From Blautia sp. (GTDB lineage Bacteria > Bacillota > Clostridia > Lachnospirales > Lachnospiraceae), in contig JALEJS010000025.1 in the NCBI GenBank assembly GCA_022769545.1, forward strand, positions 1 through 64,000: 64,000 nt of DNA, in the 5' to 3' direction. Position numbers and translations under genes: made by a program. The notes beneath the pieces were generated by a model, which was not told the origin of the DNA, searched no databases, and saw only the letters and a program-made list of their open reading frames with translations. This document shows positions 1,543-52,440 of the stretch, in pieces. How positions within the stretch are numbered: position 1 is the first letter of the stretch; each line of letters starts with the position of its first letter.

Positions 1543-2905
1543 TCTGCTCCCTGCTGCAATTTATGATCATCTGATATACCTCAGTGAAATTGCTTCCGTT
1601 TTTTCTGCTCAGTTCCGCAGTACTTTCATACTCCGGATAAAATCGCTGTTTTCCGCCTGTCTCACATACCTTTACCCGGGCATCACCAAGCGGTGTGGAA
1701 ACGGTGATGGAACATCGTTTCAAAATCGAACGTTCCATGGCCGTTCTGCGAATTCCGATGGTCGTGGTTTCTTCAAAAATAATCTTTTCCATCCGGGATA
1801 CATCTTCTTCCCCGCAGATCACACTCAAAATCCAGGCCGGCCTGTTCTTTTTCATAAAGGCAGGAACATAGTGAACATCCCTTGCCCCGGCCTCAAACAG
1901 CCGTTCCATCACATATCCCAGAGCTTCTCCCGAACAGTCATCAATATTGCTCTCAAGCTTGATAATCCGATCCCGGAGTTCCTCCTCAGCCGGCCGGATC
2001 AGCATGGCTCTCAGGATTCCCGGGCACGCATAGTCCCTTTTTCCGGCACCTACACCGATTTTTTCAATGGTAAACGACTGCGGAAGTACCCTGTCGGTAC
2101 AAAAAGCAGCCGCGATCGCCGCTCCCGTAGGAGTGACCAGTTCTCCTGCAACATCCGTTCTTTTCAGGGTGATCCCGCATTCCTGTACGATATTTGCCAC
2201 TGCCGGAACCGGAACCGGCAGGATTCCATGCTGACAGCGGATCGTCCCGCAGCCCTCATACAGCACCGGAACGATCACATCTGTGATGCCAAGATCATCT
2301 ATACAAACCGCAGCAGAAAGAATATCCACGATCGAATCCACCGCTCCGACCTCATGGAAATGCACTTCCTCCACAGGTACCTGGTGTGCCTTTGCCTCAG
2401 CCTGAGCCAAAATCTGAAAAATGCGCTCTGCCATGCTTCTGGCGCGGTCACTCATCTCTGCCTGACGGATGATTTCTAGAATTTCCTTCAGCCCACGGTG
2501 CGCATGATGATGCAGATGTTCTTTTCCGAACTCCGAAGCAGCATGTTCATGCGAATGTTCTTTTTCAGACTCCATAAAAGCATGTCCATGAAAATGCTCT
2601 TTTTCGGACTCCATAGAAGCGTGTCCATGAAAATGTTCTTTTTCGAGCTCCATAGAAGCGTGTCCATGCAGATATTCCATGTCGTGATCATGATTCTCAT
2701 GTGCCTCATCCAGAATCACATCAAAGTCACAGGCATCCACACCTGATTTTTTCACCCTGGACACTCTGATCCGGAACCCTTCCAGCGGAAGGCTTCGCAG
2801 CATCCGGTCCAGAACCTCCCGGTTTGCTCCCAGATCCAGCAGAGCAGCCACTGTCATATCTCCGCTGATTCCGGAATAGCATTCCAAATATAAAGTCTTT
2901 TTCAT
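1532..2905 (-). CDS. larC: Nickel-pincer cofactor biosynthesis protein LarC (nickel insertion)
   Basis: A 457-residue LarC, the CTP-dependent cyclometallase that inserts nickel into the pincer nucleotide of lactate racemase and relatives. The N-terminus (YLECYSGISGDMTVAALLDLG) and the motif VEEVHFHEVGAVDSIVDI are characteristic. A His-rich, presumably metal-binding insert spans about residues 70-137 and is built of four 13-residue repeats. In Lactobacillus plantarum LarC is read through a programmed frameshift as LarC1/LarC2; here both halves lie in one uninterrupted frame. It lies 30 bp after larB. No larE or larA is present in the window. Confidence 0.93.
   Translation of the reverse strand: MKKTLYLECYSGISGDMTVAALLDLGANREVLDRMLRSLPLEGFRIRVSRVKKSGVDACDFDVILDEAHENHDHDMEYLHGHASMELEKEHFHGHASMESEKEHFHGHAFMESEKEHSHEHAASEFGKEHLHHHAHRGLKEILEIIRQAEMSDRARSMAERIFQILAQAEAKAHQVPVEEVHFHEVGAVDSIVDILSAAVCIDDLGITDVIVPVLYEGCGTIRCQHGILPVPVPAVANIVQECGITLKRTDVAGELVTPTGAAIAAAFCTDRVLPQSFTIEKIGVGAGKRDYACPGILRAMLIRPAEEELRDRIIKLESNIDDCSGEALGYVMERLFEAGARDVHYVPAFMKKNRPAWILSVICGEEDVSRMEKIIFEETTTIGIRRTAMERSILKRCSITVSTPLGDARVKVCETGGKQRFYPEYESTAELSRKNGSNFTEVYQMIINCSREQNEK
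2513..2668 (-). repeat. 39-bp tandem repeat, four units, inside larC
   Basis: Four in-frame 39-bp units encode the 13-residue motif HGHASMESEKEHF and variants (residues 80-131 of LarC). Units two and three are nearly identical, while the fourth has drifted. Each unit supplies three histidines plus acidic residues. Copy number may vary between strains through slippage without breaking the frame. Confidence 0.9.
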
Positions 2906-37778: not shown

Positions 37779-37870
37779 AATGAATCGAGGAAAAAATCGA
37801 CGTCAGACTCATTTGTCGGACAACTCATCATCATTCTCGAATGGTATCTTACAGATTGGAGAATTGTAAT

Positions 37871-38780
37871 ATGGCAGGAAAAAAAATATTTGTGGATGAA
37901 ACCAGACGGGAAATCTCGGAGCATGGTACAGCCGGTTTCCCTGTCACAGTCAATCATGATGATCTCTGGATGTTTGAAGGAAAAACCGTCCCCGTCCACT
38001 GGCACAGCGATCTGGAAATCGGCCTTCCCAGAGAAGGAAAAGCCACATACCAGATCTATCAGAACCGCTATACACTTAAGCCCGGTGAAGGTATTCTGAT
38101 CAACAGCAATGTACCGCACAGCTGCTGCTCCCCGGACAACCGGCGGGTAAAATACCACAGTATCATCCTTCGACCGGATTTTTTATACGGAGATTTCGGC
38201 AGCGATGTCGAAAAGAACTGTTTTCGGCCTTTTTTACAGAATCACGCAGTTCCCTGTCTTCTGTTCCGCTCGGAAGACGACTGCGGAAAGCAGCTTTTAC
38301 AGCTTCTGAATCAGGTGGATTCTCTTTTCTGTCAGCGTCCTCCCTGCTTCGAGCTTCTCATTAAAGGACTCCTGTGTCAGGCCTTCGGCCTGTTTTTTTC
38401 CAGCCAGTCTGAAACCGTCACAGAATTTGTTCCGGAAAACAAGATTGATCTGGATCGTCTGGAAAAAAATGCTTTACTACATCCACACCCACTATGAATC
38501 CGTTTTCTCACTTCAGAAGCTGGCAGACGAGATTCACCTGTCCCGCGAGGTATGCTGCCGTCTCTTTAAAAAAATGACAGGACGCACGATCACACGCTAT
38601 CTGGAAGAATATCGCGTCAGTCAGAGCCTCCCTCTGGTGCAGAGCGGACAATATTCCATGGCAAGAATTGCCGAACTGACAGGCTTCAGCAATTCCAGCC
38701 GTTTTGCTCATGCCTTCAAAGATCATATCGGCTGTAATCCCGGAGATTACAATTCTCTGAATCAATCGCATTTATTATAG
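37871..38780 (+). pseudogene. AraC-family regulator, broken by a one-base frameshift
   Basis: Two overlapping frames encode one AraC protein. The first (37871-38497) gives a cupin-type sensor (VPVHWHSDLEIGL, LKPGEGILINSNVPH) and stops soon after the domain linker. The second resumes with MLYYIHTHYESVFSLQKLADEIHLSREVCCRLFKKMTG and the second HTH IAELTGFSNSSRFAHAFKDHIGCNPGDY, the complete AraC DNA-binding domain. The switch occurs at a run of seven A (38463-38469); six A would restore EKMLYYIHTHYE in frame. It could be a real pseudogene, a slippage-controlled gene or a sequencing error. The start follows GGAG. Confidence 0.88.
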
Positions 38781-39000
38781 TGAGATTTGTCATCAAAAAC
38801 CATTCCTGTATTGCCCTGAGTGATACAGATATTGACCAGCTTGACGATATCGAAAAAACAATGTCAGGCTCATTAATCGGGCAATCATATACGAAAAAAG
38901 GGAGCCTCGCTCCCCAACGGACTCATCATCTGTGAATCATCCGTCATCCTGCGATGCTCCCTTTCCTGTTTTTATCTCCGGTATCTGAAATTGCCGAACC
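38781..39000. other. Intergenic region between the AraC gene and surface protein gene
   Basis: No supportable gene. It contains GGGAGC and GCTCCC elements (about 38900-38915 and 38954-38962) able to form a hairpin before a T-rich tract (CTGTTTTTAT), a possible terminator for the rightward AraC gene. Confidence 0.4.
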
Positions 39001-39909
39001 CTATTTCTGTGTATACGATTTTCTTCCTAAAACAAAGATTACGGCAAGACTGAGTACTGCCATGATACCATACAGAGCCCACGGAGTGGAATCCCCTGTC
39101 TGAACCGCTCCTGAAACGGACTGGCCTCCGGCTGTTTTCGCATTTTCTACATAAACAACGGCACTGGCACTTCCATTTTCAAATTCAACCGTTATCTCAT
39201 GTTTTCCTGCAGAAAGCTGATCCATATAGGAACTTTTCACTGTAATATTTGTTACAGCTCCCGAAGCCGCCTGAACCTCATCTGCCCCAAACATGGAAAG
39301 GAGCTGTCCGAAAAGGCTTCCGGAATCAGAATCCAGAGATTCATATGTACCCATGGTAGGTGCCGGTTCTTCTGTTCTCGGATAATCACTTTCCGATGGC
39401 TCCCATGGTTCTATTGGTACCGCTGTTGTATACGGTGCCGCTGTTGTATACGGCGTCTCTGTCGTCGGATCCCATGGTGCCTCTGTTGTATCCGGTGCCT
39501 CACTGGTCGCCGGTGTCTCACTCGGTTCCGGCGCTTCACTCGTCGTCGGTGTCTCACTCGGTTCCGGCGCTTCGCTCGTTGTCGGTGTCTCACTCGGTTC
39601 CGGCGTCTCACTCACTGCCGGTGCACTACTGGTCTGCGTACCCGAATTCGAATTATAGCCGTCCGTTCCCGAAACGGTATAATCATTCTGCGAAAGCACA
39701 TTCTGATCGATCGAAATATCGATAAATTCGCTGACAGGCGCTGCAATGGAAAGAGAAAATCCATTTGCAGATCCTTTATAATAAGCATCCCCGTTTCCTC
39801 TTGTCACAGGATATGTCGCTCCCGCTGCACTTACGCTTTCCGCAAACAGCACAGAAATCAGAAATGCGCTCATAAGCGTTTTTCTGACTTTATGATTACG
39901 TCTTTTCAT
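39001..39909 (-). CDS. Secreted, mucin-like Ser/Thr/Pro-repeat surface protein
   Basis: A 302-residue exported protein I cannot assign to a named family. The ATG at 39909 has a perfect AAGGAGGT site. A signal peptide covers 1-28 (cleavage after SVSA). Residues 33-80 are a small folded region. Residues 95-185 are Ser/Thr/Pro/Glu-rich with four 12-residue repeats. A second small beta-rich region spans 218-256 (ITVKSSYMDQLSAGKHEITVEF). The C-terminus has QTGDSTPW, a membrane helix (277-295) and a basic tail, resembling the TGD-type sorting signals of Clostridia but not canonical LPXTG. It has its own strong promoter, directly downstream of a PMT glycosyltransferase operon. It is a plausible glycosylation acceptor. 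Confidence 0.85.
   Translation of the reverse strand: MKRRNHKVRKTLMSAFLISVLFAESVSAAGATYPVTRGNGDAYYKGSANGFSLSIAAPVSEFIDISIDQNVLSQNDYTVSGTDGYNSNSGTQTSSAPAVSETPEPSETPTTSEAPEPSETPTTSEAPEPSETPATSEAPDTTEAPWDPTTETPYTTAAPYTTAVPIEPWEPSESDYPRTEEPAPTMGTYESLDSDSGSLFGQLLSMFGADEVQAASGAVTNITVKSSYMDQLSAGKHEITVEFENGSASAVVYVENAKTAGGQSVSGAVQTGDSTPWALYGIMAVLSLAVIFVLGRKSYTQK
39469..39612 (-). repeat. 36-bp tandem repeat, four units, in the surface protein gene
   Basis: Four 36-bp units encode SEAPEPSETPTT and variants (residues 100-147 of the protein). Units two and three are nearly identical and the fourth is degenerate. Each offers five or so hydroxyl side chains among prolines, the classic pattern of O-glycosylated stalks. 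Confidence 0.9.
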
Positions 39910-39940
39910 ACTGGTACCTCCTTCGACGCATATTTTATTC

Positions 39941-39969
39941 ATTTTATCATTTCCCCAAATCTCTGTCAA
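39941..39969 (-). promoter_or_regulatory. Promoter of the surface protein gene
   Basis: Minus strand TTGACA (39969-39964, consensus), 17-base spacer, TAAAAT (39946-39941). It lies in the gap after the glycosyltransferase operon, so the acceptor-like protein can be made independently and strongly. Confidence 0.9.
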
Positions 39970-40045
39970 TTAATCCGCCCGACAAAATATTCTTTTTTTT
40001 GCCAGCTGTATGGCTGAACGGATACCCAAATGAATCAATGTATCA

Positions 40046-41488
40046 TTAAAGAAAACAATAATGCAGGCAGGAACCTGTCATATATCCCCACAAGATCAGA
40101 TCGGCCCACATCTGCCCTTTTTCGTATTTTTCCATAAATTTTCCGAACAGCACACTAAACGGAACCACCATGAAAATCATATACCGGAAATCCATGCTGC
40201 ACGCAAATGGATATTTATAATAAAACCATAGCATACTGCAATAAAAGACAACAGCAGACAGCAACAGAAGATTTCCGGGCCGGTCACTTCTGTTCCTCTT
40301 TATCTGCCATATACAGGCGATCACAGCGCCGACTGACAGGATTGCCGCGCAAAGCAGGAGAAGTACCGGTATCCACCCCGGCACCGCATGAGAAAATTCT
40401 CCAAACAGTGCCGATTTCAGATAATATACCGGAGCATTATAGTCTTCTGAGATGCTCACATACGGACTTCGCAGCAGACCGGAAATATCTATCCCTGCAA
40501 AGCGCTGAAACAACGAATGTGTTCCGGTATATAAATCCAGTGTTTTATCCAGCGGAAGAACATATGTCAGAGACTGACCAAACCGGAAATAGTTTCTTAT
40601 TCCATACCACAATCCCAGAGGAAGACTGATCAGCCCGAATATCACATATTTTTCCAAAATCGGACGCACATCACCCTCATGGATTTTTTTCATCAGCATC
40701 TTCAGAAATACCATTGCCGTAACCAGTGCCACGACGGCACAGGATATTTTCGTCATGACGCCGAAGCCGTAGAGCAGCGCAAGAATCACGGTGTTTTTCC
40801 AATCCGGATTTTTTGTCCAGCGCAGTGTGTATAAAAGCGCATATATCATAAACATCCCTGCCAGTGAATCCGGATTTACACGGCCGCCGGTCAGGTAAAA
40901 TGCGGGAAGAAAAGCCGTCAGCATCATTGCCGCTTTCTTTCCGAAACCATGAACGCCGCATTCTTCACAGATTCTTTTGCATCCGATCAGACTGATGCAG
41001 GAAGCGGCACAGGAAACGGTTTTTGCGGCATCTACGAGATAAAAGGAATCGCGGCATCCCAAAAAACCGTTCATCACACCGGAAAACAGTGCACCCGTCA
41101 GATAAAAAAACGGCTGCTGATACAACTGAACCGCATTGCTGTCCGGCAATTTTCCGTTTTCCAGAAGCCGAAGCAGATATCCGGCATGTCCCAGCCCCTC
41201 TGCATCGATTTGCCACAGATCATGACTTCGCACATTACATGGTGTATAAAGCATATATCCAATCCGAAACACCATCCCTAGTACAAGGATAACCCGGATT
41301 TCTTTTTCATTGCCTCCCCTGTTCAGAATCAGACAGACCGCCGCGGCGAAAAACATCCCCAGCATAACCAGCTGTATCTGTCCCTTCTGGATATCCACTC
41401 TGAATAATCTGCAGAGCAGATAACTCAATACCACTGCTGCCGTGATTAATACATTCTGAAACATTTCCGTTCGTATTATTTTTTTCAT
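40046..41488 (-). CDS. Membrane glycosyltransferase-like protein (GT-C/GT39-type)
   Basis: A 480-residue protein with about eleven membrane segments. The first external loop carries NVRSHDLWQIDAEGLGHAGYLLRLLENGKLPD, with aspartates in the place where GT-C enzymes keep their catalytic DD/DE pair, then QLYQQPFFYL. That layout marks a GT-C fold glycosyltransferase using a polyprenyl-phosphate sugar donor. The ATG at 41488 follows GAGG; an upstream ATG overlaps the PMT gene. It is last in the four-gene operon, overlapping or abutting the PMT gene. Confidence 0.8.
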   Translation of the reverse strand: MKKIIRTEMFQNVLITAAVVLSYLLCRLFRVDIQKGQIQLVMLGMFFAAAVCLILNRGGNEKEIRVILVLGMVFRIGYMLYTPCNVRSHDLWQIDAEGLGHAGYLLRLLENGKLPDSNAVQLYQQPFFYLTGALFSGVMNGFLGCRDSFYLVDAAKTVSCAASCISLIGCKRICEECGVHGFGKKAAMMLTAFLPAFYLTGGRVNPDSLAGMFMIYALLYTLRWTKNPDWKNTVILALLYGFGVMTKISCAVVALVTAMVFLKMLMKKIHEGDVRPILEKYVIFGLISLPLGLWYGIRNYFRFGQSLTYVLPLDKTLDLYTGTHSLFQRFAGIDISGLLRSPYVSISEDYNAPVYYLKSALFGEFSHAVPGWIPVLLLLCAAILSVGAVIACIWQIKRNRSDRPGNLLLLSAVVFYCSMLWFYYKYPFACSMDFRYMIFMVVPFSVLFGKFMEKYEKGQMWADLILWGYMTGSCLHYCFL

Positions 41489-41498
41489 AAACATTTCC

Positions 41499-43829
41499 TC
41501 AGCCCAGTGCAAATTTCCACGTCGGAAGCCACTCCAGAATCATATTCACATACTCTGAATCCACAGCACTCCCGGATAAAACAGGGAAAAACAAAATGAA
41601 CAGCGCAATCGACAGACATGCCGTTCCTATCATCATCCATTTTCTTCTTCGCAAATGATTCAGAGAATTTGTCACCATCAGTACAAGAAGGAGAATTCCT
41701 GCAAAATACTGATAAATAAATACCGTTCTGTGAATAAACAGCCACGGAATCACCACCGATGCATACGCAATACACAGAAACTGTGCATTTTTGCATTTTC
41801 TGCATCTCCACAGATAAATCTGATGAACCAGGGACACCAGTCCGCCCCAGAGCAGCAGCGGATTTCCAAACGTGGCAATGGAACTGATTTTTCCATCCGC
41901 AAAAACTGTATAGCAGTCCAATAACGGCTGGCAGTCTGTCAGCCATTCATACCATTCCGATGAATAAGGATGTTCAAAAACCGTAACGGAATGATATCCC
42001 AGCATAAGCTTCCCGTTATCAATAACGGTCCTGATAAGACCTTTATCCCTGTAGACTCTGGTAAACGGAAGATACGACCAGAAGTAGACAATAGCAGGAA
42101 TTACAATAAAACAGATTACACAGACAAATCCCAGCTTTCTCAGATATCTGCTGTGCATCTTCACATTCCCGATTCCGCCGACCGTCTGAACGACAGCGGT
42201 AAAAAAAATGACAGCAATGCCCACTACAGCATAACAGCCGGTCCACTTGGTGGAAATCGCACATGCCATGGAACAGCCGCACAAGAGCAGCCACATCACC
42301 TGCTCCGCAAATTTTCCCTCTGCACTGCAGCTTCTGACAAAACCGTACATGAAGAAAAACATCAGCAGAATAAATAACCCGACAATGATATCGATCGTCG
42401 CAATTCTTGCAAGAACATAATTCATAAACGCAGTGGCAAGCAGAATGGTCGAGCAGCAGGCTCCCGCCGTCCCACCGAACATTTTATGAGAAAAACAGTA
42501 TATAACGGGAATCATCAGGATTCCGAACAGTGCGCACATAATCCTCCATCCAAACGGATTCATACCGAATGCACGGATTCCCAGGGAAATGATGCTTTTT
42601 CCCAACGGCGGATGTGTATTCTCATAAATTGGCAGCTGATGCAGAAATTCATAAGCCGTACGCGCGTGGTATACCTCATCAAACATCGTCTGATCGTAAT
42701 AAGTTCTCACTTCCGGGAACAATCCCTGCTCGTCGAAAAGATTTTTATAATAACCGGCGTTATCCGGCAATACCCTGTTTCCGCCCGCATCCAGACAGAC
42801 AATCTCATGAATTCTGGCATTTCCTTCCATCAGCACCATACCAAGCATGGTCAGTGAACGGTTCACCGGTATTTCATTCCATTTGAACGCAGACTCGATG
42901 GTACGTTTGCTGTCAAACACGTCCCAATCTGTACTTTGCTCATCGAGACAGGAAAAGGATATGACCCTTTTGGACGTATATCCCAGATATATGTAGACCT
43001 TCGACAATGTCACTCCTTTATCAAACGACAGAATGATCTCATTCTCACCGTTTTCCCCGACACGGAAATCCTCATATGTCTCCGGCACACGTGTACTTCC
43101 CAGCCGAAACAGAACGACTGCCGCAAATATCACCGTAAAAAGCAGCATCAGCACAATATCTCTGACCGTCATCCGGTTCTCAGATCTGAAATGGCGCTGA
43201 CAGCCGCAGTCCTCTGTCTCATCCGCCATCTGCCATTTCCTCCCCTGCGGTCCGGTCACGGCCTTTCTGAGAATACCTGCAGCCGCACCGATCATCAGCA
43301 GAACAGAAATAATATACAGCACCGGAATCTGATCCGTATGGACAACCTCTGATAAATGCTGATCCAATATCTCCGTCGCCCAGAACCAGCCATATACTCC
43401 CAGCCCCGCCAGCACATATTCCGGCAGGAACTGCATCAGAGTGCCGTTTTTCTTTTTGATCATCCTGTCGCAGACACATAACAGTGCCAGCATAAGAAAA
43501 AGAAGGCATACTCCTTCTATGCGGCCGGACAGAATGCATATCCCGGTAAATGGCTGAAAAAGATAACATGCATATATGGTACTGTGCAAAGCTTTCTTTT
43601 TCTGCCTCCGCACATAATATACCAGCAGAAGAAGCACTGCACACTCCAGGATCACATTCCGCCATACAGAAATCTGACCGCTCTGAAGCATTGCCGCAGG
43701 ACCGATCCGCGTAATCAGATAAAAACAGAACAATTCAAATTTCGAGTATGTACAATACTGTCCGCGGCAAAAGCATATGAACCAAAAACCAAAATAAACA
43801 ATACCTGTCGCAACTAAAACAGAAATCAT
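41499..43829 (-). CDS. PMT-family phospholipid-carrier-dependent glycosyltransferase (GT39)
   Basis: A 776-residue protein. The second half is a protein O-mannosyltransferase-type core: catalytic DE pair D384-E385 in [21 protein letters not shown] (406-411), then about nine membrane helices and the C-terminal loop [18 protein letters not shown]. The first 190 residues add six helices, and residues about 245-365 form a soluble beta-rich insert resembling a galactose-binding/discoidin-like fold. The donor would be a polyprenyl-phosphate hexose, made by the GT2 enzyme upstream. Overlaps the FAD-protein gene by 4 bases. The acceptor could be protein or wall polymer. Confidence 0.88.
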
Positions 43830-45391
43830 CCCCGGGCACCTTTCTCTTCCTCATGATATTCCTTTTCTGTATTCACATTCCATATTACAGATTTGTCTGA
43901 TTTTCCGGATAAAAGCGCTTTTACCGCCTCCATCGCTGTGATCATGGAATGATCCATATTGTTGTATCTGTGCTGACCGTTTCTGCCAATACAGTACAGA
44001 TTATCGATTCCGTTCAGCCACTCTTCCAGCTTTGCAATGTTTTCGTAAGTGTCAAAATAGGCCGGATAAGCTTTCTTTACTCTCTCACAATGGTAATCCA
44101 GAATCTTTACATCTTTTTCCAAAACTCCCATCTTTATCAGCTCTCTCTGCCCGAATTCCTTCCATTCTTCATCCTTCATGTTCCAGAATTCATCATTTTC
44201 ACTGCAGAAATACTCCAGTCCCATCCATACCGTATCTTCCGGACATTTCACCATATATGGAGACCAGTTGTTAAAAATCTGTATTCTTCCCAGTTTTACA
44301 TCCCTGTTCTGAACATAGATCCAGCAATCCGGAACGATATCTCCCAGCGTTTTTATCGCCGTTTTATTCCGGATTTTCAGCTTGCTCACCAAAAGTCCCA
44401 CCGTGACAAAGTCACGATAAGGCAAGCCCTGCGCAATCTGCCTCACAGAATCCGGAGCTGTCTCCATGCCATTGACCAGATCCTTCAGAGGCATACTCGA
44501 AAAAACCGCATCGGCCATTTCCTCAAATGCTGCGCCATCTGCAACGCCGGAGACACCTGTCACCTTCCTCTGATCCAGAATCAGTCTGCGCACCTCACAG
44601 CCGGTCCGGATTTTTCCGCCCATCCTGCAAAATCGTCCGGCCACCTCTTCCCAGAGCTGACCCGGTCCATATTTTGGATAATAAAAGGATTCGATCAGTG
44701 AAGTTTCCACCTGCCTTTTCTCTTTCCAGACCATTTTTCCGAATATATCTTTCAAAACCGCCAGAACAGACAGACCTTTTACTCTCTGTGCACCCCAGTC
44801 CGGAGAGATTTCCCTCGGATGGCGTCCCCAGAGTTTTTCCGTATAGCCTTCAAAAAACATACTGTACAGTTTTTTTCCAAAACGATTGATATAAAAATCC
44901 TCCAGACTGTTTTCCTGTCTGGGGAACGCAGCCGCTTGCAGATAGCTGAGTCCTACATGAATCGTGGAGATCATACCAAGATTCCTGATTGTGGTCATAT
45001 TCATTTTCACAGGATAATCAAAAAAATTTCCGCCATAATAAATCCTGGAAATTCTTTTTCTTTTCAAAAATACCGTTTCCTCTTTTTCCGGATCCGGTCC
45101 GCCTTCCTCGAGCTCAGCCGGCCGCCCAAGAATCCGGTCATCATAGGCAGGCGCTCCCTGGACCGGAAGAATTTCCTTCCACCACTCCATCACTTCCGCA
45201 TTTTTGGAAAAGAAGCGATGTCCGCCAATATCCATCCTGTTCCCATTACAGCAGATGGTTCTGGAGATACCGCCGATTTCATGACTCGCCTCCAGAATTG
45301 TGACCTCATACTGATCTGTCTGTTTCAAAAGTTCATATCCCGCAGTCAGACCTGCCGGTCCGGCTCCGATAATCAATATTTTCTTTTTCAT
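43826..45391 (-). CDS. FAD-dependent oxidoreductase, UDP-galactopyranose-mutase/protoporphyrinogen-oxidase-like
   Basis: A 521-residue flavoprotein. The N-terminal dinucleotide motif [17 protein letters not shown] and [11 protein letters not shown] belong to the amine-oxidase/UGM superfamily. The ATG at 45391 overlaps the GT2 stop by 4 bases; a longer frame exists but is an extension through the GT2 gene. Members in glycan operons act on nucleotide- or lipid-linked sugars, for example ring contraction, and a redox-neutral flavin role would fit. Substrate unproven. Confidence 0.85.
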
Positions 45392-46356
45392 GTTTGATTT
45401 TCCTTGTCCATCTCTTCTGTATACTCTGCAATAATATACCGGGGCCGTGCCTTTGTTTCCAGATACATTTTTCCTATATATTCCCCGATAATTCCAATAC
45501 AAACAAGCTGCACACCACCCAGAAAGCAGGTGATACTTGCAAGGGAGGCCCATCCTGCGACAGAATTTCCCGTGAGCGCGGCATAGATCGCCCACAAAAT
45601 TCCAATGGCACTGAGCAAAGCAACCACAAATCCCAGCGTCGTGATCAGACGAATCGGTTTTACGGAAAAACTGGTAATTCCGTCAAACGCAAGGGACAGC
45701 ATTTTCCGCAGCGGATAATGGCTCTGGCCGGCGATCCGCTCCGTACGTTCATAATAAACGCAGGTGCTCTTAAATCCCACCAGCGGAAACATTCCGCGCA
45801 GGAAAATATTGACTTCCTTAAAATTTGCAAATTCCTTCAAAACCTTTGAAGAAACAAGCCGGTAATCTGCATGGTTATACACGATCTCTGCTCCCAGAAC
45901 ATTCAGTAATCTGTAATATCCCTGTGCAGTCGTTCTCTTAAAAAACGAATCTTTCTTCCGGCTGCTCCGCACTCCATATACAACCTCTGCTCCATCCAGA
46001 TATTCATCCAGCATCTGATCCATGGCATGGATATCATCCTGTCCGTCACAGTCAATGCTGATTGTAATATCACATTTGTCCTTTGCTTCCATAAGTCCCG
46101 CCAGAAGAGCATTCTGATGGCCCCGATTCCGGCTGAGAGAAATCCCCTGGAAAACAGGATTGTCTGCTGACAGCTTCTGAATGATCTCCCATGTAGCATC
46201 TTTGCTGCCGTCATTCACAAAAAGGACACGGCTGTCCTCACGAATCTTTTTTCTTTCCATCAGACTTTTTATTTTCTCCAGAAACAATGGTGCTGTGATC
46301 GGCAGCACTGCCTCTTCATTGTAACACGGAATAACAATATACAATCTCGGTACCAT
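45388..46356 (-). CDS. Polyprenyl-phosphate glycosyltransferase, GT2 (DPM1/GtrB-like)
   Basis: A 322-residue enzyme. The GT2 catalytic domain (about 1-230) shows [12 protein letters not shown], the DGSKD motif ([15 protein letters not shown]), and [10 protein letters not shown] with the metal-binding aspartates. Two C-terminal membrane helices (about 232-295) are as in GtrB/YkcC-type polyprenyl-phosphate sugar synthases. It should move a hexose from a nucleotide sugar to undecaprenyl phosphate, feeding the two GT-C enzymes downstream. First gene of the operon, with its own promoter. Confidence 0.92.
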
Positions 46357-46413: not shown

Positions 46414-46442
46414 AGCATAAATAGTTACCGGATATTTGTCAA
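46414..46442 (-). promoter_or_regulatory. Promoter of the glycosylation operon
   Basis: Minus strand TTGACA (46442-46437), 17-base spacer, TATGCT (46419-46414). Confidence 0.8.
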
Positions 46443-46577: not shown

Positions 46578-49500
46578 TTACCGCTTCTTCCGGATCCATT
46601 TTTTCAGTATTCTTGCCAGTGTGTTCAGATCAAGCGGCTTGGCAATATGCTCATTCATCCCTACCGTCTTCGCAGCATGCACATCCTCGGCAAATGCATT
46701 TGCCGTCATGGCAATAATCGGAACCTGCCTGCAGTACTCTCTGCCCATGGCACGGATTGCCCTTGTCGCATCATATCCATTCATCTTCGGCATCTGAATA
46801 TCCATAAAAATCATGTCATAATATCCATCTGCACAATCGGCCATTCTGTCGACCGCTTCCATTCCATTTTCTGCACGCTCAACCTCCAATCCTGTCATCT
46901 TCAGGATTTCCATTGCAATCTCCGCGTTCAGATCATTGTCCTCTGCCAGCAGGACACGGCATCCGGACAGATCCATTGCTTCCAGCACAACCATCGGTGT
47001 TTCCTGCACTTCCGGATCTTCCGTTCCCACGAGATTGCTGAAGGTCTTTGCAAGCCTGGAGCGAAACAGCGGCTTGCTGATAAATGCATTTGCACCGGCC
47101 GCGCGGGCCTCCTGTTCAATATCCGACCAGTCATAGGCAGAAATAATGATGATCGGCACATCCTTCCCAACCAATTTCCGGATTTCCCGTGTGGTTGCAA
47201 TTCCGTCCATATCCGGCATTTTCCAGTCGATGATGCAGGCAAAATAGTCTTTCTCCATCTGGTGATGAAGCACAACCTGTCTGACCGCCTCCGTGCCGGC
47301 AGAAACACCGTCTGCTCTCATCCCGAGATCCTGCAGCATTCCGCAGCAGGACTCCAGACTCATCTCATCATCATCTGCCACCAGCACATTCAGATCAATA
47401 AATTTATCATAACGGATCTCCGAAGTATCCTGAAGCCTGAGATAAATCGTTACTGTGAAACGAGAACCTACGCCCTGACTGCTTTCCACTTTGATATCGC
47501 CGCCCATCATGCGGACAATATTACGGCTGATCGACATTCCCAGTCCCGTTCCCTGAATTCTGTGCACCTGTTCATCCTGGGCTCTTGCAAACGGTTCAAA
47601 AATCTGATCCAGAAATTCTTCGCTCATACCGATACCGTTATCTTCCAAAACAAATTCAAAGCATCCGACTTTCGCCTGCATGGACGGTTTTTCTGAAATC
47701 GAAAGCTGAATTTTACCGCCATCCGGCGTAAATTTTACCGCATTTCCCATCAGATTGGTAAAAATCTTCTGGATGCGCAGGCTGTCACCGATTACCGCCT
47801 CATGCTTCACACCGGAAATATTCACTGACAGCTCATGATGATGTGCTTCGATCTGGGAACTGGTCATAGAAAGCAGGTTGTCAATCAGATCCGACAGATT
47901 AAATTCCTCTTCCACCAGGTCCACCTTTCCCGATTCAATTTTGCTCATATCCAGAACTTCATTGATCAGACTCAGCAGGTGTTTGCTCGCCTGTGTGATC
48001 TTCTGCAGGCTGTCCTGCACACGGTCTCTGTCATCCAGGTGCGCCGCGGCAATGGCCGTCATACCTATGATTCCATTCATCGGTGTACGGATATCATGAG
48101 ACATATTGGACAAAAAATCCGTCTTGGCTCTGTTTGCCGCTTCCGCAGCGTCGAATGCTGCCTGAAGAGCCATCTCCTGCTGGCGCTCCCTTTTAATCAG
48201 GTCATCCACATTTCTTGTCCCGACAACTGCCACCAGATTGCCGTCCTTTTCATGGACAAACGACACTCTCGCCTGAAGATAGACGATTCCTTCCTCTGTC
48301 CTTTTCTCATAAGTGAAGGAATAGTCTTTTCCGTCCTCCCGGATGTGATCCAGTGACAGCTTTTCAATGAATTCCCTGCGGCTTGCATCCGAGATCAGTT
48401 CCTGTGAATAGCTGCGAATTCCTCTGGACCAGCAATTGTCATGTCTGCGGAAATATTCTGCAATTGCTATGCCCTCTTCCTCCTCCGCACGATATATCGT
48501 CACCTTGTCCAGATTCGGATCCACGAGAAGTACCGAGTAATACTCTGAACCGAGCCCTTCAATGATCTCACGCTGCATCTCCATCTCTCTGGTCTGTTTC
48601 AGCTGTCGGCGTGTTTCTGCATCCACATCGCGCATACCCAGAATAAATGTGATCGTCCCGTTTTTGTCAACCGTTTTTACCGTATTCATCTCATAATAGG
48701 AAATGATACCGTTCATGCTTCTTCTGTACCCGAGCTTGTATAAGCCAACCTCCGGAACCCGCTCCATCAATACGGAAAGTCCGGTAGATTCCCTTATCCG
48801 GTCACGGTCCTCCGGTACAACAAATATGTCAATATATTTAGACAGAACCGTCTCATAATCCCCCATCGCAAGGAGCTTCTCCAGAAGATCCGGCTTTATG
48901 CCGATTCCGTCTGTCCGATAGAGAGTCATCTTTCCGGTCCCTGCATCAATTTTGAAAAGACTGCTGTATTCCTGACTCAAAGCCTCCGAAACCACAGACT
49001 CCTCCTGCAAAGCTGCATTGACCTTCTCCACTGCGGCCAGCGCTTCCTCCACCTTTCTCTGCTGAGCAAGCTCTGTGTTTTTCTCTTCATTGACATTTTT
49101 GAATCCGATCACAAACTCATTTTTTTCGCGATTTGGCTTGACGAGCTGACACTGAAAATACTGAATCCGGTCATTTCGAAAAACCCGGTAATTAAAGTAA
49201 TAGGTTTTTTTGTCCGACAACAGATCGTTTACACCGGACACAGTGCGAATCCTGTCAAACAGCCTGTGGTCTTCTTCCAGTACATCATTATCGATATAGG
49301 TCTGAATGTTTTTTTCATAATTGCCGACAGCAAACTTCTGACCATAACGGTCATTCATCGTCTGCCCCATACGGTAGCAGATCGCCTCACAGGTATCGGC
49401 ATTAACGGTATAGATATTCTCGTAGGGAATGGCAAGTGCCTGAATCAGATTGTCCTGAAATTCCACCTCTTCTTTTTCTGCCGTGATCCAGCGAAGTGTG

Positions 49501-50441
49501 CAAAGAACCGTACGGTTTTTTCCGTTTTCGCCCTTTTCCACGGGAAAGAAAGAGCAGCGGGTCCATCCTCCGGATCTGGCCAAATATTCCTGCACAATGA
49601 TTTTTTTATCTCCCAGACGCTGATCGAGCGTATCAAAATCTGTAAAGCTGCGCATGAGTGATTTGTGAGGATCACCAACCAGTTCCTCGGTAATATGTCT
49701 GAGTACCTCCCTGGCATCTCCTTTTTCCCCAAGCGTATGATGAATCTTATCGAGCGAAATCAGCTCCTGAAACGTATTTTCTTCCAGATCTATGTAATAA
49801 AGCGCAAAAAACACATTGCTCATCGCGCCGATAATCGCCGTATGCTGTTTCTCTGCTTCGAGAAGTTCCGTGAGATTCTCATTCGTCTCACGCAGCTTCT
49901 GCTGCACCTCCAGGTCTCTGAGTTGTGCACCATGAATGCTCTGTGCTGTGCCGCAGATCGATAACACCACCGGCAAAAGCAGAAGATCCCCTGTATTTCT
50001 GTGCGGATTTTCCATGCAAAGAAAGCCCATGACCGCCCCATTCTCAATCAAAGGGGCTGCCATCAGACCGTCCGCCGCCCGATATTCCAGAATCCGACAT
50101 TCCTTTTCATCTGCTTTATCGCTCCCAGACTTAGCTGAGATAAAGAAATCTCCCTTTTTCTCAAGCACTTCGAACCAAAGCTTCCATTCTTCCGGTGAGA
50201 AATTCTGCTGATCGCCGGTTTGGGCAGAGCCTTCGTCGCGGCACCACGAAAGGATTGTGCCGGCACAGGTATTTTCTGCATTTCCCGGCACCAGATATAC
50301 CCGTTCTGCCTCATAATAGCTGCCCAGATCCGCAAGGATTTGCCTCATTGTCTGTTCGTTTATTAATCTGCCCTGATATTTTTGCAGAAAGCTTTTTATT
50401 GTTTTTTCCTGTCTGGACATTTGCATTGTTTCTTCGTTCAT
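46578..50441 (-). CDS. Large hybrid histidine kinase with two receiver domains
   Basis: A 1287-residue soluble kinase. The ATG at 50441 follows AGAGGTG. The N-terminus is a GAF-like domain (about 20-170), followed by a coiled coil and three PAS-like regions. The H-box is [19 protein letters not shown], the ATPase motifs are DNGIGMS and [18 protein letters not shown], and two receivers follow: one with DDDE and D in [12 protein letters not shown], the other with LAEDNDLN and D in [15 protein letters not shown]. No membrane helix is evident, so it senses a cytoplasmic signal. The last receiver closely resembles that of the kinase at 24393. No response regulator gene is adjacent. Confidence 0.9.
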
Positions 50442-50682
50442 AAAACACCTCTGAAATACGATAACACACTTCTGAAACACTAATTGACAATGGATTTTAT
50501 AAAAGGGAGTCCTGATTAATACTATTTAACCTTGATTCGGCCACAAAAATCAAGAAATTTTGTTGATTTTTTATATTTATTGCCTTTCCATTCCTCCTCT
50601 GGTGCATATGTTGCGTCATCAGAAATTGCATTATTTTTAACAATGTACTTCGTCTGCAACGAGCCGTATGATCGGCACAATC
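50442..50682. other. Intergenic region upstream of the large hybrid kinase gene
   Basis: AT-rich, no gene. AAAAATCAA (50545-50553) and TTGATTTTT (50563-50571) form a 9-bp hairpin that could end the leftward pseudogene transcript. Possible leftward promoter boxes exist but none is convincing. Confidence 0.4.
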
Positions 50683-51406
50683 CTATTCCGTTTCGGCGCT
50701 TTCTCTGTTCAAAGTATAAACTTTATATCCGTTCTTTCCGTTCCGTTTCGTCTCATAAAGAGCCTCGTCGGCATGATGATACAATTCCAGATATGTCTTT
50801 CCATGATCCGGTGCATAGGAAACACCCATACTGACAGACAGTCTTTTTCCCTCCAGTTCCGGAATCTGCAGCTCACGATTCTTTTCCATGAGTTCACGAA
50901 CCTTGGTCTGAATATGATCCGCAGAGTCCACCAGCATCTTCTGCCGCTTCTTTATTCTGCGCACAATTACAAATATCAGAATAAGCGCTGCTGATGTCAT
51001 TGCCAGACATAGGGCAATCTCATAGCAGGTGATAAACTGATACGCACTGCGTGCACTTTTACAGGGAATCGAATAGCAGACAATCCATCCGTTGTAGGAA
51101 AGAGGCGCATATGCCATATACCAGTCATTCTTCCGATGTCAGCTCACCGCCATGCGCCACGCTCTCAGCCACACTTTCCAGATGCTGAAACTGCAGATCC
51201 AGAATTGTCTGAAGGTGATGGTTCTGCCGTTCCACATTATCCATCAGGGCTTTTTTTACATTTCGATCCACATCTTTCTGGACAAAACAGAAAAAAGCAA
51301 GCAGTACCATTGCCGTAAATACCAGAAACGCCACACCACATTTGATGTATAATTTAAAATCCTTCTCATTTTTTATTTTTAAACTCTCATTCATCGACGT
51401 ATTCAT
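50683..51406 (-). pseudogene. Degraded membrane cache-GGDEF diguanylate cyclase
   Basis: Two fragments of one former gene. The upstream part (from about 51406) has an N-terminal membrane helix and the start of a cache sensor, ending at TGA (51125-51127). The second frame begins with the cache end (DWYMAYAPLSYNGWIVCYS), a second membrane helix, then jumps straight to the C-terminal half of a GGDEF domain (GKRLSVSMGVSYAPDHGK, ADEALYETKRNGKNGYKVY). The catalytic GGDEF/GGEEF motif is missing. So there are two internal deletions: one in the cache that shifts frame, one removing the active site. No cyclase activity is expected. Confidence 0.85.
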
Positions 51407-52440
51407 CCCAGAAATAATTTTTTCCATCTTTCTTCTGTTTTCAGAAATCCATACGTTTCTTCATCCTGAAAGCACAGCAGAAGATTCTTTTTTAATTCCG
51501 TCAGGAAAGCTTCATTTTCTTTAAAATCCATATCCGCATAAAGCAAGGATTTCGTAAAACTGTTGATTTCATTTACACTGTCAAGCATTTCTTCCATAAT
51601 CGACAGAACCTTATCCGCATCCTTTTCCAGTGTTGCTATTTCCAGCTGACTGGACACCTCACGATATCTGCCCATTTCAAATAATCTTGCGGTCTCCGAT
51701 TGTTTGTCGGCAAACAAATGTGCTTTTTCAAAATCATTTTCCTGAAGTGCCAGAAGATACAGCCCCTGAAACGTGGCATTTATCCTCTGACAATCCTCAA
51801 ACAACAGCTCTTCATATGCCTGATACGCCTTCTTTTTCTGATTTGTGAAGCTGTAAAGCTGAGCCTGTTTTCTTTTTCTTTCCGGATTTTGTTCTGAAAA
51901 ATAACACAGATATTGCTCTGCCTTCGCATATTCCTTCTTCCTCAGATAATAGCTGTACAGGGAATCGGCACTTCTCTGACGTACCATCTCATCCTTACTT
52001 TCCAGCGCTCTCTGGTACCAGCTGCAGATAATGGAATCATATCTTTCGCCATCCGGTATCTCTTTCATAATTTTTCCGGCATTGAACACCACCGCAATCT
52101 GCCAGAGCAGCATCTCGCAGTCCGGATATTTCTCTATGATCTGCTTCGCCCAGGAAAATGCATCTTCAAAGGACTGTTCTTTTAGCCGCCGGTCAGCCTC
52201 ATCTATAATATCCTTTATCTCCTTTTCCGTCAGTTTCCCGCCAAAAGATAATAGCTCATCCGTGGTAATCCCCAGAAGTCTCGCAATTGGTGCCAACAGC
52301 AGAATATCCGGCATAGAATTTCCATTTTCCCATTTATTAACGGCTGGTGCAGACACGCCCAGCCGTACAGCCATCTCTTCCTGTGTCAGATTTTTTATTT
52401 TCCGATATTTTCGTATCACCTGTCCCAGTTCCATCTCCAA
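51403..52440 (-). CDS. XRE-family regulator with TPR-like helical domain
   Basis: A 345-residue protein. Residues 1-65 are a clear Cro/XRE HTH (LGQVIRKYRKIKNLTQEEMAVRLGVSAPAVNKWENGNSMPDILLLAPIARLLGITTDELL). The rest is all-helical with TPR-like repeats. Such proteins in Firmicutes regulate in response to peptides or metabolic signals. It ends at the start of the GGDEF pseudogene, with a few bases of overlap. Target unknown. Confidence 0.88.
   Translation of the reverse strand: MEMELGQVIRKYRKIKNLTQEEMAVRLGVSAPAVNKWENGNSMPDILLLAPIARLLGITTDELLSFGGKLTEKEIKDIIDEADRRLKEQSFEDAFSWAKQIIEKYPDCEMLLWQIAVVFNAGKIMKEIPDGERYDSIICSWYQRALESKDEMVRQRSADSLYSYYLRKKEYAKAEQYLCYFSEQNPERKRKQAQLYSFTNQKKKAYQAYEELLFEDCQRINATFQGLYLLALQENDFEKAHLFADKQSETARLFEMGRYREVSSQLEIATLEKDADKVLSIMEEMLDSVNEINSFTKSLLYADMDFKENEAFLTELKKNLLLCFQDEETYGFLKTEERWKKLFLG

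Follow-up and report, generated by a model that had tools for sequence, protein, structure and literature searches.

A probable Pgf-like protein O-glycosylation cassette with a UGM-superfamily flavoenzyme in a Blautia genome

We analysed 64,000 nucleotides of a Blautia sp. genome (assembly GCA_022769545.1, contig JALEJS010000025.1, positions 1 to 64,000; hereafter the window), which contain a five-gene locus on the minus strand. In transcription order, the locus encodes a GT2 glycosyltransferase, a flavin adenine dinucleotide (FAD) protein, a PMT/GT39 glycosyltransferase, a second GT-C glycosyltransferase (GTC2) and a secreted repeat protein. In our best reading, which we hold to be probable from comparison of sequences, this is a Pgf-like cassette for protein O-glycosylation that includes a furanose-making flavoenzyme. 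The genes and the repeat segment are as follows.

45388 to 46356, minus strand: GT2 gene (PF00535, E 2e-22), predicted PgfS-like polyprenyl-phosphate sugar synthase
43826 to 45391, minus strand: FAD gene (ATG at 45391, stop at 43826), PRK07208 family, UDP-galactopyranose mutase (UGM) superfamily
41499 to 43829, minus strand: PMT/GT39 gene, 776 amino acids (PF02366, PF13231 and PF16192 over cut-offs)
40046 to 41494, minus strand: GTC2 gene, 482 amino acids (PF13231, PMT_2, over cut-off)
39001 to 39909, minus strand: repeat-protein gene, 302 amino acids, proposed acceptor with signal peptide, repeats and membrane tail
39355 to 39630, minus strand: Ser/Thr/Pro/Glu repeat segment, proposed O-glycosylation sites (Tandem Repeats Finder)

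A preliminary description of this DNA had reported four packed genes running into a secreted repeat protein, and all five genes were indeed found. The GT2/FAD and FAD/PMT junctions are 4-base overlaps (ATGA), in line with that description, whereas its 14-base overlap arises from an upstream TTG start and is replaced by a gap of 4 bases between PMT and GTC2. Because of these 4-base overlaps or spacing, the GT2, FAD, PMT and GTC2 genes very likely form one operon. A gap of 136 bases follows between GTC2 and the repeat-protein gene.

In the GT2 protein, C-terminal hydrophobic helices follow the PF00535 domain, and the best NCBIfam match is PgfS (NF047588), at 215.8 bits under an equivalog cut-off of 500. 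The PMT protein scored 52.3 bits with PF02366 (cut-off 22.7) and 41.9 bits with PF16192 (PMT_4TMC; cut-off 32.4), and 62.5 bits against a cut-off of 800 with the PMT equivalog model NF058602. Its FDE and HPPxGK motifs are unchanged in all seven aligned sequences, the window's included, with D384, E385, H406, P407 and P408 invariant; we take Asp-Glu and His-Pro-Pro to be the catalytic motifs of GT39/PMT. It also bears an additional N-terminal membrane region, at about residues 1-218. GTC2 matches PF13231 at 34.2 bits (cut-off 26.1), and its structure model, of modest confidence (predicted local distance difference test, pLDDT, 69.8; 5 sequences), matches STT3/oligosaccharyltransferases, Pmt4 and ArnT. 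With PMT and PMT_2 domains over their cut-offs, two PMT-type membrane proteins are encoded at the locus.

The FAD protein belongs to the UGM superfamily by sequence, structure model and catalytic residues. UGM was its top match by sequence and by fold, and it scored 761.3 bits (cut-off 418) with NF005546, the PRK07208 flavoprotein family that NCBIfam labels 'hypothetical protein'. It failed the models for UGM itself, with 37.5 against 303.75 bits for TIGR00031 and 13.2 against 26.3 bits for GLF (PF03275). Residues were checked in an alignment of 56 FAD proteins, namely the window's and 55 selected from 109 listed. The Gly-Gly-His loop and the pyrophosphate-binding Arg/Tyr set of UGM are retained in 56/56, and the window protein keeps the flavin, sugar and pyrophosphate residues together with Tyr104 and Phe158, which presumably sandwich uracil in UGM. 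At the position of Gln107, Gln is not retained; the residue is Ser in 38, Lys in 15 and Thr in 2 of the 56 proteins. According to the excerpted text of PMC3624792, Gln107 hydrogen-bonds uracil in fungal UGM, and bacterial UGMs lack a contact of this type. We propose that the FAD protein is a furanose-forming mutase.

These residues bear on the substrate of the enzyme. As a second UDP-galactopyranose mutase, it would supply cytoplasmic UDP-galactofuranose (UDP-Galf), which GT2 would then load onto the lipid. The retained flavin, sugar and pyrophosphate residues, Tyr104 and Phe158 included, speak for this alternative, whereas the change at Gln107 and the failed TIGR00031 and GLF cut-offs speak against it. 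So do the separate bona fide UGM (GLF) that the source genome encodes elsewhere and the locus L066 (1749-5411), where an FAD gene, a PgfS-like GT2 gene (product 69% identical to the window GT2) and a bona fide UGM gene lie in one gene run. We regard a second UGM as possible, leaning towards doubt. A redox enzyme in a DprE1-like role, which would epimerise or oxidise the lipid-linked sugar and not act as a ring mutase, appears improbable, given the Gly-Gly-His loop and Arg/Tyr set kept throughout the alignment and the absence of a partner reductase gene from the cassette. Such alternatives for what the FAD protein acts on fall within the best explanation as variants of it, which is why the likelihoods given here do not add up to one.

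FAD gene neighbourhoods were compared in a wider set of 117 loci (numbered with L), consisting of the best 80 of at least 589 FAD relatives in GTDB genomes and 37 loci from the family sample described below. L061, L063 and L065, which still count towards the 117, were dropped as duplicates of L101, L106 and L119, and the FAD score filter was passed by 110 of the 114 remaining loci; L139, L170 and L171 were dropped because the open reading frame (ORF) caller gave no FAD frame. In the 110 loci, GtrA-like ORFs took 24 of 101 positions directly before FAD and 5 of 109 directly after it, and were concentrated within two genes of FAD (33/403) relative to positions further out (3/973). GTC2-type GT-C ORFs showed the same trend (28/403 near FAD vs 1/973 further out), and Pfam assigned GtrA to 24/75 upstream and 5/81 downstream neighbours. 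At 46 of the 110 loci, FAD has a GtrA no more than two genes away or a GT-C no more than three; the other 64 have neither. Furthermore, a single open frame at L152 (9854-12835; a Lentisphaeria metagenome-assembled genome) encodes the FAD protein joined to a GT87 glycosyltransferase. These neighbours, as read from sequence, point to a lipid-linked sugar. The earlier suggestion of a modification of the sugar or its carrier by the FAD protein gains support from its UGM kinship and from the GtrA and GT-C neighbours.

Some FAD proteins of this set have long charged low-complexity tails of about 450-1150 residues (L090:8993-14065, L102:9998-12919 and L110:9998-13201), in which no Pfam match was found. 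At all three loci, a gene starting MKILVINGPN lies upstream of FAD, a start that we take to resemble type II dehydroquinate dehydratase.

Absence of linkage in relatives, which the preliminary description had named as counting against its proposal, was partly borne out: FAD and PMT were not linked in any of the 59 other genus genomes or 199 other family genomes sampled. The cassette was found in distant lineages with the genes reordered. The order is FAD-PMT-GTC2 at L107, PMT-GTC2-FAD-GT2 at L111 and GtrA-FAD-PMT-GTC2 at L118, and L155 has GtrA-FAD with a convergent PMT gene. Around the genome of L118, a full-length PMT was present in 7 of the 149 genomes searched, those of L118 and L155 included. 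The L118 gene order is seen again at L208 and L209. At L211, PMT-GTC2 stands at the end of its contig, and the 4-kb contig L210 carries these two cassette genes alone. At L212, PMT is accompanied by a GT2 gene in divergent orientation. Identity to the window proteins is 61-66% for FAD, 37-41% for PMT, 42-43% for GTC2 and 61-63% for GT2 (L212, L111). On a tree of the 56 FAD proteins, the five PMT-linked ones need three label changes, at least two of them forced by supported branches; because of this, the FAD-PMT pairing has probably been made or kept more than once.

The proposed acceptor in the window is a secreted protein with a signal peptide and a CBM_X2-like domain that is apparently interrupted by repeats, the second half alone matching CBM_X2 (Pfam) at 25.0 bits, below the cut-off of 28.9. 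The repeat has a 36-base unit in 3.4 copies (Tandem Repeats Finder score 190), and the segment of 92 residues contains 31 Ser+Thr, 21 Pro and 20 Glu+Asp. The tail consists of QTGD, a membrane helix and RK, without LPXTG. The LPXTG sorting-signal model TIGR01167 gave 13.7 bits for this tail, narrowly under its cut-off of 15.9, and three sortase matches were found in the source genome. Thus, of the Ser/Thr/Pro repeats and membrane or sorting tail previously described, the repeats and the membrane helix were confirmed and the LPXTG model was not matched. No full-length relative of the protein was found in 59 other genus genomes; partial matches in 4 of these 59 fall within residues 71-166, mostly in the repeats.

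Exported proteins rich in Ser, Thr and Pro also adjoin the cassette elsewhere. At L111, the product of the gene 5' of PMT is a secreted protein with choline-binding repeats, whose tail of 283 residues is made up of Thr/Pro/Glu-rich repeats (TEAP, PTVEPSATP, ETERPQ). At L118, the cassette is followed by a gene for a GH9 cellulase in which Pfam recognises CBM3 and dockerin, and L208 and L209 each have two genes whose products are 64-99% identical to it. The linkers of the GH9 cellulases at these three loci, for example ASPKPTASPKPTESAKPT, contain 18-22 Ser/Thr/Pro per 30 residues. Dockerin-bearing GH9 cellulases adjoin the cassette in several Ruminococcus genomes. The L118 genome has 150 dockerin matches (all the scored ones) and the L155 genome 72, as expected for cellulosome builders; no dockerin match was found in the window genome or the L111 genome.

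A Ser/Thr/Pro-rich neighbour was defined as an exported protein in which Ser, Thr and Pro make up 18 or more of 30 residues, the Ruminococcus group was counted as one lineage, and the four cassette loci were excluded from the background count. Such a protein adjoins the cassette in 3 of 5 lineages, compared with 6 of 1360 background ORFs in the other loci. The binomial chance of at least 3 among 10 flanking genes is 1.0e-5. With the window left out, since it had suggested the idea, the chance of at least 2 of 8 is 5.4e-4. At a threshold of 16 of 30, these values weaken to 2.2e-4 and 4.2e-3; they are guides and not tests because the threshold was picked after the loci had been viewed. The preliminary proposal of PMT-type O-glycosylation with the repeat protein as acceptor is supported by this comparison, because the cassette recurs, reordered, beside unrelated secreted Ser/Thr/Pro-rich proteins and because its layout is similar to that of the S. 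mutans pgf locus, which has been studied experimentally.

The same neighbourhoods were weighed for a role in decorating a wall polymer (teichoic acid, lipoteichoic acid or capsule) in the three-component style of Bacillus and Listeria, with the repeat protein as a mere neighbour. Three-component polymer-modifying systems combine GT2, GtrA and GT-C, as given in the excerpted literature, and at least 42 of the 110 FAD loci have GtrA or GT-C nearby without PMT. Nucleotide-sugar epimerases or dehydratases, which also favour this role, are neighbours of FAD in 3/75 upstream and 2/81 downstream cases. However, the window PMT shows GT39 signatures, including PMT_4TMC and the invariant FDE/HPPxGK motifs, and in three lineages, members of the full-length PMT subfamily lie next to genes for cellulases or exported Ser/Thr/Pro-rich proteins. 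Furthermore, the six typed flanking genes of the window locus (prismane protein, GNAT, MATE, AraC, histidine kinase and GGDEF) include no known polymer gene. A wall-polymer role is therefore unlikely in our judgement.

Transcription signals concern the tie between the repeat protein and the other four genes. Three sites were noted.

46414 to 46442, minus strand: promoter-like site 5' of the GT2 gene, TTGACA-17-TATGCT, 10/12 matches
39941 to 39969, minus strand: promoter-like site of the repeat-protein gene, TTGACA-17-TAAAAT, with extended -10
38899 to 38915, minus strand: intrinsic-terminator-like hairpin 3' of the repeat-protein gene, 7 pairs (5 G-C), then a T run

Of the 20 promoter-like sites that a scan of 14 kb gave, against 21 in shuffles, the one at 39969-39941 scores best. 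Its pattern, which was derived from the site itself, has its sole exact match in the window there, with 0.02 expected. Terminator-like sites number 22 in the scanned region vs 11 in shuffles. Because the best-scoring promoter-like site precedes it, the repeat-protein gene can probably be transcribed separately. This favours a reading of the repeat protein as an unmodified spacer or stalk, set beside the cassette by chance after horizontal acquisition, as does the lack of a relative of either gene in most sampled genus genomes. However, the cassette has repeat-rich exported neighbours in other, unrelated contexts as well, and base composition gives no sign of recent transfer; we consider chance adjacency a poor prospect.

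Several findings weigh against protein O-glycosylation by a furanose-making cassette. The genus sample comprised 60 genomes and the family sample 200, the source genome included in each. In the genus sample, strong FAD relatives occur in 3/60 genomes and PMT relatives in 2/60, own included, and the two are linked in the window only. In the family sample, where strong FAD relatives (E at most 1e-97) occur in 35/200 genomes and PMT relatives in 24/200, no genome other than its own has FAD and PMT on one contig. Among the 117 wider loci, a PMT relative lies near the FAD gene only in the four with the orders given above (L107, L111, L118 and L155), and because PMT is nearby in so few, the FAD family must serve other glycans too. 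L212 lacks FAD and GTC2 within the 20 kb fetched, the cassettes of L107 and L212 have no Ser/Thr/Pro-rich neighbour, and the linkers of the GH9-dockerin proteins beside L155 and L211 are short (11/30 Ser/Thr/Pro). In the FAD protein, UGM positions Gln107, Arg160, Asn163 and Tyr334 are changed, Asn207 (mutated in the chain used) pairs with Ile beside a gap, and the model is weak (pLDDT <50) at 472-477, where the match to Tyr453 falls. Finally, the proposed acceptor gene apparently has its own promoter-like site, and GtrA is absent from the window locus; on these two counts, the earlier suggestion of a self-contained locus is not supported. The source genome has two GtrA-domain matches, both outside the locus, and each of these genes already goes with another GT2, one lying beside it and one being fused to it.

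A MATE-family gene (PF01554; 36373-37737, minus strand) lies 1.3 kb past the repeat gene; an AraC-type gene of the opposite strand separates the two. The MATE product is a candidate flippase because MATE proteins are able to flip polyprenyl-linked sugar lipids (PMC11127046, in the part available); equally, it is perhaps an ordinary efflux pump.

In the protein O-glycosylation reading, GT2 would load a hexose, most likely galactose as its family suggests, onto undecaprenyl phosphate. The FAD protein, whose fold and catalytic residues are those described above, would interconvert the pyranose and furanose forms of galactose by UGM chemistry, acting on the lipid-linked sugar or on UDP-galactose. 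A flippase encoded elsewhere, either one of the genome's two GtrA-domain proteins or the nearby MATE protein, would turn the lipid-linked sugar outward. Judging from its family and the recurring gene neighbourhood, PMT would then put the first sugar on Ser/Thr in the Ser/Thr/Pro-rich parts of exported proteins, in this case the repeats of the neighbouring one, and GTC2 may add a further sugar, perhaps a furanose, to extend the glycan. The sugar coat would shield the protein from proteolysis, as excerpted papers report for Cnm and CelA.

A more specific form of this scheme, which we put forward tentatively and rate as rather unlikely, makes the FAD protein a polyprenyl-phosphate-galactopyranose mutase. 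By contracting the ring on the lipid carrier, it would yield polyprenyl-phosphate-beta-Galf for inverting GT-C enzymes and hence alpha-galactofuranose on exported proteins, both mucin-like surface and cellulosomal ones, and on polysaccharides at other loci. Older structural work found alpha-galactofuranose in cellulosome O-glycans, which lipid-level Galf formation would explain if the proposal were true. An enzyme acting on lipid-linked sugar would add a new kind of step to glycan assembly, with a role like that of DprE1, and could account for alpha-furanoses on proteins. Also, the PRK07208 family would gain a function if this reading were true. To our knowledge, little has been described of protein O-glycosylation in Clostridia of the gut and rumen, and we know of no full account of the further genes that build the sugar coat of cellulosomal enzymes; a cassette found with repeat-rich surface proteins and dockerin cellulases offers concrete genes for glycan genetics.

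Other features of the window were also noted. The AraC-family regulator (37841-38780, plus strand) is in two overlapping frames, a ligand-binding half (37841-38497) and a helix-turn-helix half (38427-38780), which match Pfam separately, indicating a broken gene or a sequence error. The gene for a 1300-residue hybrid histidine kinase with two receiver domains (46578-50480, minus strand) runs in the direction of GT2 and stops some 220 bases short of it; the kinase might sense for or co-regulate the locus. Two short ORFs at 50683-51427 (minus strand), the second with a GGDEF end only, resemble a diguanylate cyclase remnant. A 39-base tandem repeat (2510-2677, minus strand) encodes His-rich, possibly metal-binding repeats inside ORF 1532-2905.

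Several known systems come close to the proposed pathway. The S. mutans pgf operon (cnm-pgfS-pgfM1-pgfE-pgfM2) is built on similar lines. Its GT2, PgfS, is of the type nearest to the window GT2, two PMT-type membrane proteins flank an enzyme that converts the sugar, and the adjoining surface protein has a Thr-rich region that was shown to be modified (PMC5856776, as excerpted). It differs in that its sugar enzyme is a UDP-glucose 4-epimerase (PgfE), whereas that of the window is a UGM-superfamily flavoenzyme, and the window GT2 lies far under the PgfS equivalog cut-off. In Caldicellulosiruptor bescii, the GT39 protein Cbes_1864 is a PMT-family O-glycosyltransferase encoded near genes of exported Thr/Pro-linker proteins, as the window PMT is near a repeat protein. 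Its deletion mutant had no detectable protein glycosylation, the enzyme being needed for glycosylation of Thr/Pro-linker cellulases, and GT39 had already been noted in most cellulose degraders, cellulosome formers included (PMC6151902, available sections). With 556 amino acids, Cbes_1864 is about as long as the window PMT counted from residue 219, and the window PMT has the added N-terminal membrane region; those sections of PMC6151902 mention no FAD protein.

The FAD protein shares with eukaryotic-type UGM the fold, the Gly-Gly-His loop and the pyrophosphate-binding Arg/Tyr, and differs in the absence of the uracil-contacting Gln107 and in failing the UGM family cut-offs. A sugar altered before flipping and GT-C transfer is also found in DprE1/DprE2-Rv3789-arabinosyltransferases and in the undecaprenyl-phosphate ribose system of Citrobacter, the change taking place on polyprenyl phosphate, as described or inferred in the excerpted PMC11127046. 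These systems differ in transferring pentofuranoses onto polysaccharides and in using other families of sugar-changing enzymes, and that of Citrobacter has a MATE-type flippase. In the same excerpts, Kelly et al. 2024 report that the pentofuranose transferred by a GT-C depends on an additional epimerase gene; they place the change, by inference, on the lipid carrier and account in this way for alpha-pentofuranoses. Taken together, because of the parallels with the pgf locus, the C. bescii GT39 and the systems of Kelly et al., the window system is, by analogy, a variant of an established type, with the flavoenzyme as its new part.

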